A stretch of DNA of 64,000 bases from Fidelibacterota bacterium (GTDB lineage Bacteria; Fidelibacterota; Marinisomatia; SCGC-AAA003-L08; TS1B11): the NCBI GenBank assembly GCA_020354025.1, contig CP070638.1, forward strand, positions 1,811,956 to 1,875,955, given 5' to 3'. The position numbers and the translations under genes are program-made. Numbering within the stretch: position 1 is the first letter of the stretch; the number at the start of each line of letters is the position of its first letter. Below the pieces are notes generated by a model. The model was given only the letters and a program-made list of their open reading frames with translations. It was not told where the DNA came from and made no database searches. Shown piece after piece: positions 10,144 to 48,874 of this stretch.

Positions 10144-11178
10144 ATGCGTATTGGCATTTTGACAGGCGGAGGCGATTGCCCTGGGCTTGACCCGATGATA
10201 CGGGGACTGGTCCTTACCGGAGTTAAAACCTACGGCTACGAATTTCTTGGCTTCCTTGACGGGTGGAAGGGTCCCGTAGAGAACCTCACCATGCCCCTTG
10301 ATGTGGACAGCGTGCGGGGTCGTTACGATGTGGGTGGCACCATGCTCGGCTCCAGCCGCACCAATCCCCTGAAGGACCCCGCTCTGATTGACAAGATCAA
10401 AGCAAATTTGAAGGCCAATAAAATTGACGTGCTGGTGGCCTCCGGGGGAGACGACACCCTGGGCGTAGCTACCAAGCTCTCTGAAATGGGGATCAAGACC
10501 ATCGGCGTACCCAAGACCATTGATAACGATCTGTCCGCAACCGATTATACCTTCGGCTTCGATACGGCTGTTGCCATTGCCACCGAGGCGATAGACCGCC
10601 TTCATACCACCGCCCGGAGCCATCATCGAACCCTGGTGTTAGAGGTCATGGGCCGGCATTCAGGATGGATCGCCCTGTATAGCGGTATTGCTGGCGGTGC
10701 CGACTACATTATGCTGCCGGAGAAAGACACGGACCCGAAGGAGCTGTGCGCCTCGGTCCAGCGCGAGTACGGCGAAGGCCGGAAGAACTACGCCATAGTA
10801 GTGGTTTCCGAGGGTGCCAAGCTAATCCAAATGGAAGAGCTGACCGTGCAGGACGAGAGCCAGGACGCTTTCGGACACGTGAAACTGGGGGGCATCGGTA
10901 AGCAAGTGTCCAAGCTGATCGAGAAGGAAACAGGTTTTGAAACCAGGGATGTCTTGCTCGGGCATATCCAGCGAGGCGGCTCACCTACGGCCAAGGACCG
11001 GATTCTCTCCACGCGTTACGGCGTTTTTACCGCCCATATGATCCACAAAAGCCAGTTCGGTTATATGCCGGCATTAAGGGGCAACAATATCATGGCCGTA
11101 CCCCTTTCGGAAGCTACCTACGAGAACAAGGTGGTGGGACCCGAGTGGTTCCCCGTGCTGGATGTTCTAAAGGCTTAG
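10144..11178 (+). CDS. pfp: Pyrophosphate-type 6-phosphofructokinase
   Basis: This second phosphofructokinase is 344 residues, the length of the compact bacterial type. Its donor-site residues are GGDDT at 101-105 and PKTIDND at 123-129. In characterised enzymes, aspartate in place of the second glycine plus lysine in PKTIDND goes with pyrophosphate use and a reversible reaction. The N-terminal loop GGGDCPGLDPMIRG has an unusual D-P-M where N-A-x is common. ATG 10144 follows AAGGAG; the in-frame TTG at 10120 is rejected. The stop codon overlaps the stop of the convergent sulfotransferase gene by three bases. The donor assignment is inference from motif only. Confidence 0.9.
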   Translation: MRIGILTGGGDCPGLDPMIRGLVLTGVKTYGYEFLGFLDGWKGPVENLTMPLDVDSVRGRYDVGGTMLGSSRTNPLKDPALIDKIKANLKANKIDVLVASGGDDTLGVATKLSEMGIKTIGVPKTIDNDLSATDYTFGFDTAVAIATEAIDRLHTTARSHHRTLVLEVMGRHSGWIALYSGIAGGADYIMLPEKDTDPKELCASVQREYGEGRKNYAIVVVSEGAKLIQMEELTVQDESQDAFGHVKLGGIGKQVSKLIEKETGFETRDVLLGHIQRGGSPTAKDRILSTRYGVFTAHMIHKSQFGYMPALRGNNIMAVPLSEATYENKVVGPEWFPVLDVLKA

Positions 11179-12482
11179 CTGTTCGAAGGAGTGCTTCTAG
11201 CCTCGGCGAGGCCTTCTTCAGCCTCCGCGTGTCCGGTCTCCATCTCCAGTATCCGGGAGAAGAGTTTCCGGGCCTGTTCTTCCATCCCCAGACTGGCACA
11301 CGCCGTACCGAGAGAGAACAGGGCTTCGGTGTCACGGGGGTGTCGCTCGACGATGTCCAGAAAGGTTTGAAGCGCATCCTCGGTACGGCCCAGCTCTAGG
11401 TATACTTCAGCCAGGTTTTTAGCCGTATCAGTGTTTTCAGGGTTAAGCTGCCGGGCCAGGCTCAGGTGGGCTAGCGCCTGCTCCTTATCCCCCCTGTTGA
11501 GGTAGAGCACCGCCAGATCGTTCTGGGCCTGAGCGTGAAAGGGATGTAGCGATACCGTCTCCTGCATAGCCTTCAGCGCTTCTCCGAGCTGGTTGCACTC
11601 GATAAATTCATTAGCGCGTTCGAAACTGGCCTGGGCCTTCATTTTCGCCTCTGGGGTTGTGGTGTCACTCTCAGGTAACCGGCTGCCGATGGTTTTTTCC
11701 AGTTTGAGCGGGAGTACCAATCCCTTATCCATTGCCTCTTGGAGGGCTTTGCCGCCTGCGGCACATAACGCTGCATACGCTTCAGCTACTTCAAAGGGTG
11801 CCTTGGCCTCGTTCAGCTCTGCCTCTGTAAGGCGGTGTTGTCGGTGGGACGAGGAAATAGAACGGCAGGCCGCGTCGAGCCGCTCCTCAGGTACCGACCA
11901 TCCCAGCCAGTGTAACACTCGATGGAGCTCACTCCGCGGGTCTACAAAGTACATGTCATAGTGAGTGATCAACCGGTCGCCGGGATCGGTATCTGCGAAT
12001 ATACGCTGGTAATACCTGAGCCACAGGTTGTAACTGAAGGCGTCGGTACTGCTCACCTGCTTGCCGAGGGATTTGGCAGTTTCAATGGGATTGCGGAGGC
12101 AAACAACCACCTTCAGTCCTGGCAATACGCATCTCCAGAACGGAAGGATCAGACTGCAGCGTGGGTCTTTCCAGCCCCATTGTTTTCGCTCACCAATGGT
12201 CCCGATGAGCTGCTGGGCCCGCTCGCGGAAGGGGGCCATATCGGGCTTTGTCTCCCAGCCCTGGGGCATACGGGGCAGGAGGAAGTCCCAGTCTCCTGTG
12301 AAGTGGGCTAGGATATCCTCGGTCAGCTGGTCCATGTCCTGGTTCTGCCAGTAGCCTGCGGGATTTCCCTCGTCCGGCGGCATGATCCGCTCTTCCGGTC
12401 CCAGGTACAGGCCGCAGAGATTGAGCAGACGGGCTATCATGGAGGTGCCGGTTCGGTGCATACCGGTGATGCAGATAGTCAT
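11175..12482 (-). CDS. Sulfotransferase-family protein fused to C-terminal TPR repeats
   Basis: The first 230 or so residues look like a sulfotransferase: the 5' PAPS loop ITGMHRTGTSMIARLL at residues 4-19, GYWQN, WGWKDPRC, and the LRNPIETAKSL segment typical of the 3'-phosphate site. From about residue 285 the protein becomes a run of tetratricopeptide repeats (AKMKAQASFERANEF, LAVLYLNRGDKEQALAHL, LAEVYLELGRTEDALQTF, LGTACASLGMEEQARKLF). It lies 75 bases downstream of the glycosyltransferase gene on the same strand, and both are divergent from flagellin, so it may sulfate a glycan on flagellin or on another surface protein, with the repeats gripping the target. Substrate is not shown by sequence. 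Confidence 0.78.
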   Translation of the reverse strand: MTICITGMHRTGTSMIARLLNLCGLYLGPEERIMPPDEGNPAGYWQNQDMDQLTEDILAHFTGDWDFLLPRMPQGWETKPDMAPFRERAQQLIGTIGERKQWGWKDPRCSLILPFWRCVLPGLKVVVCLRNPIETAKSLGKQVSSTDAFSYNLWLRYYQRIFADTDPGDRLITHYDMYFVDPRSELHRVLHWLGWSVPEERLDAACRSISSSHRQHRLTEAELNEAKAPFEVAEAYAALCAAGGKALQEAMDKGLVLPLKLEKTIGSRLPESDTTTPEAKMKAQASFERANEFIECNQLGEALKAMQETVSLHPFHAQAQNDLAVLYLNRGDKEQALAHLSLARQLNPENTDTAKNLAEVYLELGRTEDALQTFLDIVERHPRDTEALFSLGTACASLGMEEQARKLFSRILEMETGHAEAEEGLAEARSTPSNS

Positions 12483-12557
12483 TGTCCGATTCCCTCTATC
12501 GTTGAGCAGGTCCTTCCACAGGTCACCGGTAACCGGGGCTGCAGCACCGCTGGATTT

Positions 12558-13754
12558 TCAGGCACAGGTTTTCCTTGTCAGATCAAGCATGGTAGTCACC
12601 CGATGCTCCATCAGGTGTTCGCGCCAGATCCTTTCCCGGGCTTTCTGGATTACCCGGTCCCGGGCTGCCGGGTGTTCGAGAAAATATCGTACTTTGTCCT
12701 TCAATTCCTCGTCGTTGTGGAAGTACACCACCTCCTCATCCAGCTCGAAGTGGTCGGCCAGGGATTCCTGCCAATCGGTGAGGACGAATCCGTTACACAT
12801 GGGGACGTCGAACAGGCGCTGGTTCAGGGCTGTTTCCTGCTGGAACGTGGTCAGGCTCAGGTTAACGGCGCTGTTCAGATAGACGTTCGGGGTCTCCAGG
12901 GCATATGCCACCGGGGAACGAACGACTTCTTCAGGGAGGTAGTTCTTCCAGTCGTCGATACCGTACACCACCAGTGGCTCATCCAGTAGAGTGGTCAGAC
13001 GCCCCACCCGGTAGCGGCGGGTCTCCCGGAAAACCACATAAGCGATAAAGTTGTAAAAGGCATCCAGGGTCGTAAAACGCTCCCGGTAAGGGGCAAATAC
13101 TGTGTCCAGGTCGATATGACCAATCTCCATCTTCATAGTGCTGAAATCGGGCTGCCATTCGCTATAGAGGGTTTCGTATACATCGTGATGAAAGTGGCGA
13201 ATCATTTTGACGAAGGTTCCCCCAACGTAAGAAACCTTATTTCTCAGAAACTTGAAGCGGTTGTCGTGCTTCACTTTGCTGTAGGTGATATCAGTAGCCA
13301 GAGGGAGGTAGAAGGCGTACGGGAAGCCAGCCTGATTAAGGGTGGGCAGCAGGGCTTTATCGGAGGAGAACGCTACGACGGATTCTGGAATTTCATCAAT
13401 TGCGTGGGGACCGGTAAAGCGGTAGTTGTCCAGGTACCAGAGGATCACCGGCAGCGGAAGCCTGGCCAGGACACCGATGATGGTGCCCTGGTGGTCGAGC
13501 CCCATGTTGTTGAGTACCAGCAGGGCATCAGGTCGGAGTTTCACCGCCTCTTCCAGGATCAGGCGGAGGGCATCCTTGGCGGGCGTATGTTCGGGCAGGG
13601 CCAATTCGATAGCCTGGTGCCCCCTATGTCGTAGCTCTGCCAGGAGCTGGTTCTGGAGAAAGTAATCGTACTTGAGAAAGAGGAACCGATAGGGTGGCGA
13701 TTTGAACTTCTTGTACTGGAAGTGCCGCTTCAGATTCGGCAGTTCTGATTTCAT
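12558..13754 (-). CDS. CgeB-like glycosyltransferase (GT-B fold)
   Basis: The 398-residue protein resembles CgeB/spore-maturation-type glycosyltransferases: an N-terminal Rossmann half with LRPDALLVLNNMGLDH and ILWYLDNYR, then a second half with VVYGIDDWKNYLPEEV, YLNSAVNLSLTTFQQETALNQRLFDVPMCNGFVLTD and YFHNDEELKDKVRYFLEHP, the typical donor-binding and C-terminal pattern (N-x-R-x-F-D and the E-L segment). No signal peptide, so it acts in the cytoplasm. The gene is divergent from flagellin with 262 bases between the starts and leads into the sulfotransferase gene. Glycosylation of flagellin before export is the natural guess, as CgeB-like enzymes often flank flagellin genes. Acceptor and sugar are unknown. 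Confidence 0.75.
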   Translation of the reverse strand: MKSELPNLKRHFQYKKFKSPPYRFLFLKYDYFLQNQLLAELRHRGHQAIELALPEHTPAKDALRLILEEAVKLRPDALLVLNNMGLDHQGTIIGVLARLPLPVILWYLDNYRFTGPHAIDEIPESVVAFSSDKALLPTLNQAGFPYAFYLPLATDITYSKVKHDNRFKFLRNKVSYVGGTFVKMIRHFHHDVYETLYSEWQPDFSTMKMEIGHIDLDTVFAPYRERFTTLDAFYNFIAYVVFRETRRYRVGRLTTLLDEPLVVYGIDDWKNYLPEEVVRSPVAYALETPNVYLNSAVNLSLTTFQQETALNQRLFDVPMCNGFVLTDWQESLADHFELDEEVVYFHNDEELKDKVRYFLEHPAARDRVIQKARERIWREHLMEHRVTTMLDLTRKTCA

Positions 13755-13877: not shown

Positions 13878-13904
13878 TAAAGATTTCCGGTTGGCTGCCG
13901 ATAT
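13878..13904 (+). promoter_or_regulatory. Sigma-28 (FliA) promoter of flagellin
   Basis: TAAAGATT at 13878-13885, an 11-base spacer, then GCCGATAT at 13897-13904. This matches the enterobacterial sigma-28 consensus TAAAGTTT-N11-GCCGATAA at 14 of 16 positions with exact spacing. Transcription would start near 13911, giving a leader of about 105 bases before the flagellin ATG. Confidence 0.88.
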
Positions 13905-14016
13905 GACAGGATAGAGAGCAAAAGTGGTACCGGCGGTCGGGCGATGCGGCTGGTTACCGGAAAGGAAAATCGCCAGTGGGCAGGGATGTCCACATAATGA
14001 GCACAAGGAGGTAATA

Positions 14017-14838
14017 ATGAGTTTCACTCGTATTAACGCCAATATCGCGGCGTTAGCATCTTACAATGAGCTTCTCAAGGTAAATAGCTACGTTGCGAGG
14101 GGTTTGCTTCGGTTGTCTTCGGGCAAGCGGATCAATAAGGTCGGCGACGACCCGGCCGGTTTCTCACTGGCCCGGGGCATCGAATCGCGCCGGCGTTCAC
14201 TTTCACAAGCGCTGGACAACGTTGGTACCGCCAAGAACGTCCTCTCTATTGCCGAAGGGAGCTACCTGGCTATCGCCAGTATTCTCCAGGTTATCAAGGA
14301 GAAGACCGTACAGGCCGCTGACGACAGCTACAACCTCGATCAGAAAAATGCGATCCAGGGGCAGATTACCGCCCTGGTAGCCGAAATCGACGACATTGTC
14401 GAGGAAACCGAGTTCCAGGGCACACAGCTGATTGACGGTTCCTTCGCCGCCGCCAAGTTCCAGACCGGCGCCGCGGCTGGTGACGTTTTCAGCGTATCGT
14501 TAAACAACGTGGATTCGGCTGCGTTAAATGTCGACGCTCTGGTGGTTACTGATGCCGCTACCGCTTCCGCTGCCATGGCTGATGTGGATGCCGCCATCAA
14601 CACACTTAACCAGGCAGCTCAGGACGTGGGTGAGTATACAATCCGTTTGGATAACAAGGAGACCACCCTGTCGGTTGGTATAACCAATATCGAGTCCACC
14701 CGTAGCCGGATTGAGGACGCTGACTTCGCTCAGGAGCAGATGAACCTGATCCGGGCTCAGATCGTACAGCAGACAGCATTCGCCTCGTTTGCACAGGCTA
14801 ATGCGGCACCCCAGCTGGTCCTATCGCTCTTCCGGTAA
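14017..14838 (+). CDS. fliC: Flagellin
   Basis: The 273-residue flagellar filament subunit keeps the two conserved ends that form the D0/D1 coiled coil: INANIAALASYNELL and LRLSSGKRINKVGDDPAGF at the N-terminus; IESTRSRIEDADFAQEQMNLIRAQIVQQ and SFAQANAAPQLVLSLF at the C-terminus. The variable middle is short (about residues 145-195), so the outer D2/D3 domains are missing and the filament should be thin and smooth. ATG 14017 follows AAGGAGGTAATA. The gene has its own sigma-28 promoter and a strong terminator, as expected for a highly made monocistronic transcript. Serine/threonine-rich central residues are possible sites for the neighbouring glycosyltransferase. Confidence 0.96.
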   Translation: MSFTRINANIAALASYNELLKVNSYVARGLLRLSSGKRINKVGDDPAGFSLARGIESRRRSLSQALDNVGTAKNVLSIAEGSYLAIASILQVIKEKTVQAADDSYNLDQKNAIQGQITALVAEIDDIVEETEFQGTQLIDGSFAAAKFQTGAAAGDVFSVSLNNVDSAALNVDALVVTDAATASAAMADVDAAINTLNQAAQDVGEYTIRLDNKETTLSVGITNIESTRSRIEDADFAQEQMNLIRAQIVQQTAFASFAQANAAPQLVLSLFR

Positions 14839-14996: not shown

Positions 14997-15023
14997 TAAA
15001 GAATCCTCTATATCTTCCGATAA
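14997..15023 (+). promoter_or_regulatory. Sigma-28 (FliA) promoter of the fliS-fliD operon
   Basis: TAAAGAAT at 14997-15004, 11-base spacer, TCCGATAA at 15016-15023. It matches the sigma-28 consensus at 13 of 16 positions with exact spacing. The start point would be near 15030, about 64 bases before the fliS GTG. Confidence 0.82.
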
Positions 15024-17756: not shown

Positions 17757-18254
17757 ATGGCACCTATAAAAAATATCGTTGGCGACGTCCCGTCTCCTGA
17801 GCGTCTAAAACCTCAGGACCGCGTTTCCACAACCCGCTCTGATAAAGCAAAAAAACAGGGTCAGGCTCGCGAGAGCGCCACGGTAGAGTCCCGCGGGGAT
17901 ACGGTAAATATTTCCACAGCCGCGAGACAGCTAGCGGAAACCCGTGACACTCAGATGGCGCAATATCAAGATATGCTGCAAGCCCTGAAGAGCGAAGACG
18001 GCGATAAGGTGAAAAATGTGCAGCAGCGGATTGCCCAAGGGGAATTCAACGAGCCCGCCGTACTGGAGAGCGTCGCTGAGGCTATTAGCAACCTGCCTCA
18101 ATTCCAAGCCCTGACAGAAAGCGCTCCGGAAACATCCCGGACTAGGGAGCTCAGGGGAGACATTGCCCAGAGGATCCGTTCCGGAGAGTATGAGTCTGAC
18201 GACGTACTTGATAGGGTAGCCATCAATATCCTCAGAGATATTGGCGCCGCCTGA
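17757..18254 (+). CDS. FlgM-like putative anti-sigma-28 factor with doubled C-terminal unit
   Basis: FlgM holds sigma-28 inactive until the hook is complete and is then exported. The 165-residue product has a disordered N-terminus (1-47), a D-T-V-N-I-S-T-A-A-R-Q-L segment at 48-59 like the D-x-V-x-L-S motif of FlgM, and a helical unit V-x-x-x-Q-Q-R-I-A-Q-G-E-F at about 86-98 matching the V-x-x-I-x-x-G-x-Y motif of FlgM. A second such unit, L-R-G-D-I-A-Q-R-I-R-S-G-E-Y-E, follows at 132-146 with DRVAINIL after it. Typical FlgM is about 90-100 residues with one unit, so this is almost double. It is the last intact gene of the sigma-28 operon, a normal place for flgM. The function is inferred. 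Confidence 0.6.
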   Translation: MAPIKNIVGDVPSPERLKPQDRVSTTRSDKAKKQGQARESATVESRGDTVNISTAARQLAETRDTQMAQYQDMLQALKSEDGDKVKNVQQRIAQGEFNEPAVLESVAEAISNLPQFQALTESAPETSRTRELRGDIAQRIRSGEYESDDVLDRVAINILRDIGAA

Positions 18255-47100: not shown

Positions 47101-48491
47101 TCCAGACTCGCGACCGAGTCCCGGCCGTTCACGACAGTGATGTCGATATCGCTGGCGGTAAGAGTCGCGCTGGTGGACCTGAACATGTGGACCTCGGCGT
47201 TGTCGTCTACGTCTTCCACGAACCAGAAGATGCTGATGTCCTTCTCGTTTGCGGTTGGGCCATAGGCGCCGGTGATATCGATCACACCGCCCGATTCCAG
47301 GGTGATGGATGACAGCTCACCGTCCAGGCCCACACCTGCATTATAGATGTCGTCAAAATTACCTGCAGTCACATCATCGTCAAATATGAGGCCGGTACCG
47401 AGGGTGGCATCATAGAAGTCGGCGAAGACTGGACGATGCCGAACGTCGACAGTATCGCTCCGGCCTATGACCCAGTCGCCCGTGGCGTCGGACGTGATGT
47501 ATACATACCAGTTGCCCTCATCCAACAGATAGGTGCTGATGAACCCGGTATGGGCCACCGGAACCGGACCCGCGGCTTGATTGAAATCGAGGTTGTCATA
47601 ACTCAGCGGGTAGGTCTTGGGATCGAGGAGACCGGCATCGTCATAATCGATCACCCTTTGGCCGCTACCACTGTTAATCCTCGCAAGCGTGGAAACCTGC
47701 GATGCCCAGAGGTAATAGGCAACGTCGTTATTATCATTGGCATCCATGGCCACACCACCTATGGTCGGTGCCCATAAGTTGACATTGGCCTGGGTCCAGC
47801 TGATATCGGCGATGGCGGCAGTCTTTATCAGGTTCGGCAGAGATGTGGCGCCGACCATCGTGTTGGCTGCCTCGGCGGCATCCGGATCAGGGAGATATTT
47901 CCCTCTATTATTGGTATTTACTTTGCCGCTGGCTCCCGCGTCTTCCAACAGGGTTGACCAGGTTATCAGATCCAGTTGATCAACGAAGCTGACGGTCAGG
48001 TCAATGTCGGCCCCTTCCACCGTCGCCGTACCGCCAAACGTGACGGTATAGTCATCCGAAGACAGTGCCGGAGAATCAGACGTGGAGATGGGGAAGATGA
48101 TCCACACCTCGTCGGCTGCCGCAGTGGCAGCGCCGCCTGAGGTGATCTCGATGGAGGTTGCACTGGCAGCCGTTACGGAAAACGTGGCGCCTCCCGTGAC
48201 CCAGGTGATGATGGGTTCGTCCGTGCGGTCAGCGACGGCATCTTGATCAACATCCGGCAGGAGGACATCCCCCGGAAAGGTAATAGTGATCGTTCCGCCT
48301 ATTGCCCAACCACCGGTTAACTTGAGGTAAACCGTCTGGACGAACAAATGGTTGCCATCAGCCCCATTGGCGTAAGCACCTTTTGGGATCGAAGTCGGGC
48401 TTACCGCACTCCCCTGAATACCGTAAGCCGTACTGGCGAATGCCATCAGAGCAACGGCTACCAGAAGGTGTACCTTTCCCAAATACTTCAT
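44130..48491 (-). CDS. Giant exported surface protein with cohesin-like and dockerin-like segments and type IX-like sorting tail
   Basis: The 1453-residue protein has a clear signal peptide (MKYLGKVHLLVAVALMAFASTAYG) after AGAGAGGATTATACT; the longer frame to 48584 is rejected. Most of it is a string of acidic, Asp/Thr/Gly-rich beta modules. Around 45390-45890 a cohesin-like domain is visible (LSPSKMSMSPGDTLEVDVY), then a carboxypeptidase-regulatory-like fold (YYELEGIPSGEYDVILRMDGYL), then at 44830-45060 two calcium-loop, dockerin-like segments (PDNRIDGDDTDAIATAF; YADVDESGTVGINDLFMASK). The tail, with NYPNPFNPSTNINFSLP and GTGIYFYHL, is a type IX-like sorting signal. It has its own sigma-28 promoter and a strong terminator, so it is probably an abundant surface or flagellum-linked protein. 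Low cysteine content fits an S-layer-like role. Confidence 0.85.
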   Translation of the reverse strand: MKYLGKVHLLVAVALMAFASTAYGIQGSAVSPTSIPKGAYANGADGNHLFVQTVYLKLTGGWAIGGTITITFPGDVLLPDVDQDAVADRTDEPIITWVTGGATFSVTAASATSIEITSGGAATAAADEVWIIFPISTSDSPALSSDDYTVTFGGTATVEGADIDLTVSFVDQLDLITWSTLLEDAGASGKVNTNNRGKYLPDPDAAEAANTMVGATSLPNLIKTAAIADISWTQANVNLWAPTIGGVAMDANDNNDVAYYLWASQVSTLARINSGSGQRVIDYDDAGLLDPKTYPLSYDNLDFNQAAGPVPVAHTGFISTYLLDEGNWYVYITSDATGDWVIGRSDTVDVRHRPVFADFYDATLGTGLIFDDDVTAGNFDDIYNAGVGLDGELSSITLESGGVIDITGAYGPTANEKDISIFWFVEDVDDNAEVHMFRSTSATLTASDIDITVVNGRDSVASLDGGSAVKIHSTALYEEDADGYYNYQIYTNESVFEPANTYYIYVVLNDGNNQDIKAVDTEAVASAAAPVAATLTIKHYPFFGWHVYKPYDVTGPPNEYYLESADSRYFTLSWGNPPTGSTNKDGDTDIDAAGTATIKIYAITLATGDWASIITVDPTNTTALDAAVSAGTATLLTTITDSVDTREANRYEWDYRNSGLAAGDYYAWALMEHAGDKILAQLNPDGTPGALAADWDDIELVISHSEYMRAVTPYAGPPVELDNGDSYRLVWEGFDLNTTGSPAVFAALVKVGSANPGNATMAIWAAAPYNATPLGDDIIWVLPTSTAGADPAGGEAGATAADGSVIINISDYATNASGTAWTEGDYELYYFLDPDEDGGVPDADWSTNPPNGVKAHGTVYLSAQTTTAYNVRLSPSKMSMSPGDTLEVDVYATDDGTAENPNMAIFFVEIPQASLFEIVDQDGDPDNGVVQPFDNLIGTTTVAPNELLGDVLMNSLETVGGSYVLGYLEKLASGSTNDVTDSKMTSFKFTMSSAIATPIEDLEIVFSESEGFETNLYDDDGSPQATSLPPVALTVRMGQSGILYGAVDVEGRDDQGEEVSFYLAEAGSFTPLADAAYLDANSDLDGTDGVQVTLGAAGYYELEGIPSGEYDVILRMDGYLDVVRTNQRIVSMDYTAMNFTGGNKLFGGDAAGFDDDGVAATASLPDNRIDGDDTDAIATAFGTSSGDSLWNEYADVDESGTVGINDLFMASKNLGRDGEGVFYREIPGSNEDAVIYLAVVDETAEGITFAVQAEKLGSLSAYSVDMFVPANDWEVVGHSDGLASHFKTIEASRLDGPMALFGSAAKGYASVVDKEAELMTFTLRQRSVDPEMPTLSGVTLVSSDGILTSALIGGMREMVPDEFALSQNYPNPFNPSTNINFSLPSEGQVKLTVFNLLGQEVRTLVSGALEPGNYKAVWNSLNNQGEKVGTGIYFYHLVVNNKVIATKKMVLMK

Positions 48492-48874
48492 AGTATAATC
48501 CTCTCTAAGGTTTTGTTTATTAAGGGATTGATATTGTGTTTTGATCATTGCGTGATCTATGCGTGCTCTGCATAGCCGCGGCATTCTGCCTGATTCAGAA
48601 TCTCTAGAGTGCAGTTTTCCGCGGGTGCTTTAGCTGACCCCTTTATCGGCAGTTTCTGCTGATTCTTTAGCTTTTTTTTTCGGGTTTTTTAATGGTGTGT
48701 GTTTAATAGGATTAGGCTGGGAATTTCAGCCGCTGGCGAGCGATTTGGATTATGGTCTTTAAAGTGCGCTTGAGTAGTAATCTAAGCGCTTGTGGTGGGA
48801 GGTGTAAGGTTTGCCCTCGCCCGAGGTGAGGGAACGTCGAAACGGGAGCTTGTCGAAGCCCGATGGCGGGTGGC
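48492..48874. other. 383-base leader and promoter region of the giant surface protein
   Basis: The region holds the sigma-28 promoter at 48643-48669. On the minus strand, A-rich tracts (plus strand T runs at 48671-48680 and 48685-48690) lie directly upstream of the -35 and could be an UP element. The leader would be about 145 bases. Plus-strand 48812-48866, with CCCTCGCCCGAGG and GGGAGCTTGTCGAAGCCC, looks like an intergenic repeat of a sort common in bacterial genomes. No gene. Confidence 0.5.
48643..48669 (-). promoter_or_regulatory. Sigma-28 (FliA) promoter of the giant surface protein
   Basis: On the minus strand TAAAGAAT (48669-48662), an 11-base spacer (48661-48651), then GCCGATAA (48650-48643). 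The -10 is identical to the enterobacterial consensus, the -35 is identical to that of the fliS promoter here, and the spacing is exact. A run of nine A residues precedes the -35 box. The start point would be near 48636, about 145 bases before the ATG at 48491. Confidence 0.85.

Follow-up and report, generated by a model that had tools for sequence, protein, structure and literature searches.

A flagellar-type promoter precedes an operon for two giant predicted surface proteins in Neomarinimicrobiota

In a group of uncultured marine bacteria (Neomarinimicrobiota), an operon encoding two giant proteins predicted to sit on the cell surface carries the type of promoter that turns on the flagellar filament genes, and this promoter is kept in nearly every relative that could be read, so these cells probably dress their surface specifically for swimming. 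The operon begins with P0001, a 1,453-amino acid exported protein with a type IX sorting tail, followed by P0003, a second giant type IX cargo, and two predicted lipoproteins. A sigma-28 (FliA)-type site stands before P0001 in all ten genomes of the family in which the upstream region is readable, as well as before the only full-length homologues found elsewhere in the phylum. In contrast to the sigma-28 regulons of E. coli and C. difficile, the non-flagellar member here is an operon of type IX secretion cargo. Control by sigma-28 is well supported by comparative evidence, in the absence of transcript, ChIP or mutant data, whereas a role as an adhesin or surface scaffold is inferred.

A sigma-28-type promoter upstream of P0001

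We analysed a 64,000-nt window of the genome (contig CP070638.1), in which the minus strand carries TAAAGAATCAGCAGAAACTGCCGATAA 151 nt before the ATG of P0001 (Table 1). This sequence has the canonical FliA/SigD form (TAAA-N15-GCCGATAA). It is the only match in the window, where 100 dinucleotide-preserving shuffles gave 0, and the only site without a mismatch in the whole 3,404,291-base genome. The initial annotation had proposed that P0001 belongs to the FliA regulon on the basis of this motif, its exact spacing, an A-rich tract in front of it and the presence of the same form before flagellin and fliS. We confirm these observations, with the flagellin and fliS sites lying about 34 kb away. 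A further site inside P0001, at 47803–47827 (TAAAGACT-N9-GCCGATAT), was rejected, as its spacing is short by 2 and it is intragenic. No sigma-70-type promoter was found upstream of P0001 except one overlapping the start region, and the leader matches no Rfam family.

Table 1 Features of the operon, its promoter and the flagellar genes in the 64,000-nt window.
Feature	Position	Strand	Description
Sigma-28 (FliA)-type promoter of P0001	48643..48669	-	TAAAGAAT-N11-GCCGATAA; -35 at 48662-48669, -10 at 48643-48650
A-rich tract	48670..48690	-	Next to the -35 element; possible UP-like element
Predicted 5′ untranslated region	48492..48642	-	About 145 nt; ribosome-binding site AGAGAGGA at 48499-48506
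P0001	44130..48491	-	1453-aa exported protein; Ig-like repeats, cohesin/X/dockerin-like block, type IX sorting tail
X-module-like (CarboxypepD_reg) plus dockerin-like region of P0001	44847..45233	-	About aa 1087-1215
Type IX (type A) sorting tail of P0001	44142..44387	-	aa 1369-1450
P0003	40221..43979	-	Second giant type IX cargo, 1252 aa; weak cohesin-like N-terminus
P0004	39544..40224	-	Predicted lipoprotein; start overlaps the stop of P0003
P0005	37845..39491	-	NHL-repeat protein with lipobox-like signal
Sigma-28-type promoter before flagellin	13878..13904	+	TAAAGATT-N11-GCCGATAT
Sigma-28-type promoter before fliS-fliD-flaG	14997..15023	+	TAAAGAAT-N11-TCCGATAA
FlgM-like anti-sigma-28 factor	17757..18254	+	Next to flgN-like gene

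Conservation of the promoter

To examine whether the motif is kept in close relatives, a test suggested by the initial annotation, we compared the sequences upstream of P0001 homologues, and the result did not refute the assignment. All 11 genomes of the family encode the protein, at 29–49% identity, and in the 10 in which the upstream region of a copy can be read, TAAAG-N15-CCGATA stands 127–152 nt before the ATG. One of these genomes, G001, carries a perfect match to the 27-mer pattern before its second copy, whereas before its first copy, and in the family genome G002, runs of N hide or remove the region. Outside the family, full-length homologues were found only in two genomes of another class of the phylum, G201 and G204 (family f27), and both carry TAAAG-N15-CCGATA about 190–200 nt before the ATG. 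In G204 (contig C282) two P0001 homologues lie in tandem; the site found lies before the second, and the first is cut by the contig end. The motif thus precedes 12 of 12 homologues with readable upstream sequence in these two groups, whereas a first-order Markov null gave it in 39 of 240,000 simulated upstreams. In the alignment, the 15-nt spacer has drifted, but both boxes and the ribosome-binding site (GAGGA) are conserved, and the A positions upstream of the -35 element, among the few invariant upstream positions, are invariant in the 10 family genomes. Two exceptions were seen: the diverged homologue in G083 (family f14) lacks the canonical site and has only the mis-spaced TAAAG-N16-TCGATA about 100 nt upstream, and a P0001 paralogue in the family genome G009 (contig C12, position 285000), whose N-terminus differs, has no site. 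A FliA motif alone can be silent, as in E. coli, where 30 of 52 FliA binding sites lie inside genes and most of these give no detectable stable RNA (PMC4183435). However, conservation at fixed spacing over diverged upstream sequence, the uniqueness of the perfect match and the lack of a credible sigma-70 site upstream make it very unlikely that the motif is a chance or non-functional match and that the operon is transcribed from another promoter.

The genome also encodes the cognate sigma factor. FliA is over its curated cut-off (TIGR02479), or within one bit of it, in 10 of the 11 family genomes, and the copy in the genome analysed here is over the cut-off and matches solved FliA structures (PDB 6pmi, E 8e-31; 1rp3, E 8e-23). 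The FlgM-like gene in the window falls just under its cut-off (PF04316, E 1e-4, 22.8 bits against 25).

Operon organization and distribution

The initial annotation missed that P0001 heads a conserved operon. We found no terminator-like or promoter-like site between P0001 and P0003. The order P0001–P0003–P0004 is kept in the family genomes G003, G004, G008 and G009, with P0005 also seen in G003, G004 and G008. It is likewise kept in G201 and, with P0001 cut by the contig end, in the genome G203, while P0003 and P0004 are together in G204. P0004 also follows the P0003 homologue in G006. Across 245 genomes of the phylum, P0001 was found in 14, all among the 49 with flagellin, and a P0001 C-terminus lies at a contig end in a fifteenth, G203. 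P0003 also occurs in 14 genomes, the same set except G007, and is adjacent to P0001 in most. The association with flagellin looks extreme when counted genome by genome (3e-11), but it reflects only three lineages; we therefore do not use it as a probability and regard it as supporting and not conclusive.

Predicted protein architecture

P0001 has a signal peptide by inspection, conserved Ig-like repeats, a CarboxypepD_reg domain (below cut-off), a dockerin-like region and a type IX type A tail (TIGR04183, E 1.4e-8, 34.5 bits against a cut-off of 23). The type IX translocon protein SprA is encoded in the genome (SprA_N, PF14349, 70 bits against 27, at position 2725244). Among the roles listed in the initial annotation (a filament sheath, a motility adhesin or a cell-surface coat), a sheath around, or a component of, the flagellar filament is the least supported. 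Although P0001 shares a promoter class with flagellin and was found only in genomes with flagellin, its type A tail predicts type IX export and attachment to the cell surface, not flagellar export. Moreover, it is co-conserved with another type IX cargo and predicted lipoproteins, most flagellated relatives in the phylum lack it and nothing ties it to the filament, so we consider this reading unlikely.

The cohesin/dockerin likeness noted in the initial annotation is confirmed at profile level. The family profile matches X-module/dockerin structures of cellulosomal scaffoldins (PDB 4u3s, E 1.6e-9; 4wi0, E 2.3e-9; 2b59, E 1.9e-7), although Pfam Dockerin_1 was detected in only 2 of 13 members (best E 4e-4). 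AlphaFold models of P0001 are of moderate confidence (mean pLDDT 63 and 67), so the N-terminal fold matches are only indicative. In foldseek searches, the C-terminal model matches the C. thermocellum cohesin-X-dockerin trimodule (3kcp, 4fl4; TM-score normalised by target 0.38–0.41); apart from this trimodule, searches with both halves gave only generic Ig-string matches. The P0003 N-terminus matches cohesins only weakly (2y3n_A, E 0.16; 1tyj, E 0.32). The X-module/dockerin and trimodule matches of P0001 raise the possibility of a scaffoldin-like role, in which the dockerin/cohesin-like modules hold hydrolases or bind particles for feeding while foraging by swimming. However, no catalytic or carbohydrate-binding family was found over a curated cut-off in P0001, P0003, P0004 or P0005, and this role remains doubtful. 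A regular, S-layer-like coat of P0001 and P0003 over swimming cells would be consistent with the long strings of Ig-like domains and with the S-layer proteins 8cka (E 2.2e-6), 9g93 and 8s80 among the hits to the N-terminal half. Yet the TM-scores are low (0.09–0.25) and shared with many unrelated Ig-domain proteins, the model is of moderate confidence (mean pLDDT 63) and no known S-layer anchor domain was found, making a coat of this kind improbable, although it remains open.

Model for a swim-phase surface assembly

On the basis of these data, we propose, with good confidence, that the motif is a FliA promoter that drives P0001–P0003–P0004–P0005 together with the late flagellar genes. After completion of the hook and basal body, FlgM would be exported and FliA freed, as follows from established knowledge of the pathway, and FliA-RNA polymerase would then transcribe flagellin, fliS–fliD and this operon. 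P0001 and P0003 would cross the outer membrane by the type IX system and be fixed on the cell surface by their type A tails, as inferred from the sorting domains. They probably form one assembly with each other and with the two lipoproteins, perhaps through a dockerin-like module in P0001 and a cohesin-like module in P0003. This assembly most likely serves swimming or dispersing cells as an adhesin or surface scaffold, a role that is inferred without direct evidence. More speculatively, the operon may build a previously undescribed structure in which the two cargoes are clipped together on the cell by a dockerin–cohesin contact, with the two lipoproteins as base, and which is gated by the FlgM/FliA checkpoint so that it appears only on cells with a finished hook. 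Such a structure would couple the type IX system to the flagellar hierarchy.

Control of surface proteins by a flagellar sigma factor is known: C. difficile SigD affects the adhesin gene cbpA and the surface protein CD0514 (PMC3865298). Type IX cargo under a flagellar sigma factor, by contrast, was not found in the literature searched, nor could we find a described flagellar regulon for this almost uncultured phylum. In cellulosomal scaffoldins, the cohesin-X-dockerin order resembles that of the P0001 fold match, but no enzymes or binding modules were found over a curated cut-off in the operon, and the partner cohesin is only weakly suggested in P0003. The model predicts that these cells change their surface when they become motile, which bears on attachment to particles and on dispersal, and the regulon (flagellin, fliS, a PF12118 gene and this operon) is compact and could be read from metatranscriptomes without cultivation.

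Other candidate members of the regulon

Genome-wide, strict sites are few. In 14 related genomes, the strict pattern TAAAGNNT-N12-CCGATA finds 54 sites, against 5 for the reversed pattern. In the 10 family relatives these sites precede flagellin, fliS, PF12118 genes and P0001 homologues, with a minority before other or no genes. In the genome analysed here, sites with at most two mismatches outside the window precede a second flagellin (position 855146) and a PF12118 gene (site at 1045876–1045902), plus a few doubtful places; the site at position 3010762, about 0.4 kb before ilvD, is probably a chance match. The PF12118 (SprA-related, HExxH-like metalloprotease) gene is a recurring sigma-28 member in the family, also seen in G003, G005, G006, G007 and G008, and its Campylobacter jejuni relative CJM1_0395 was proposed as a flagellar-secretion substrate (PMC5223770). 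A 283–298-aa protein without Pfam match is preceded by a strict motif in two genera (G007, contig C10; G008, contig C74) and has no relative in the window. Paralogous small membrane proteins at genome positions 2058968 and 3130432 have a TTAAGAAT-N11-nCCGATAA element (TAAAGTCT form in G003), suggesting possible sigma-28-like promoters of a family of unknown function.

Within the window, a TPR-sulfotransferase and a glycosyltransferase gene (11175–13754) lie next to flagellin on the opposite strand and are possible flagellin modification genes. The flagellin reading frame itself (13924–14838) opens at GTG 13924, but the protein most likely starts at ATG 14017 (MSFTRINAN).
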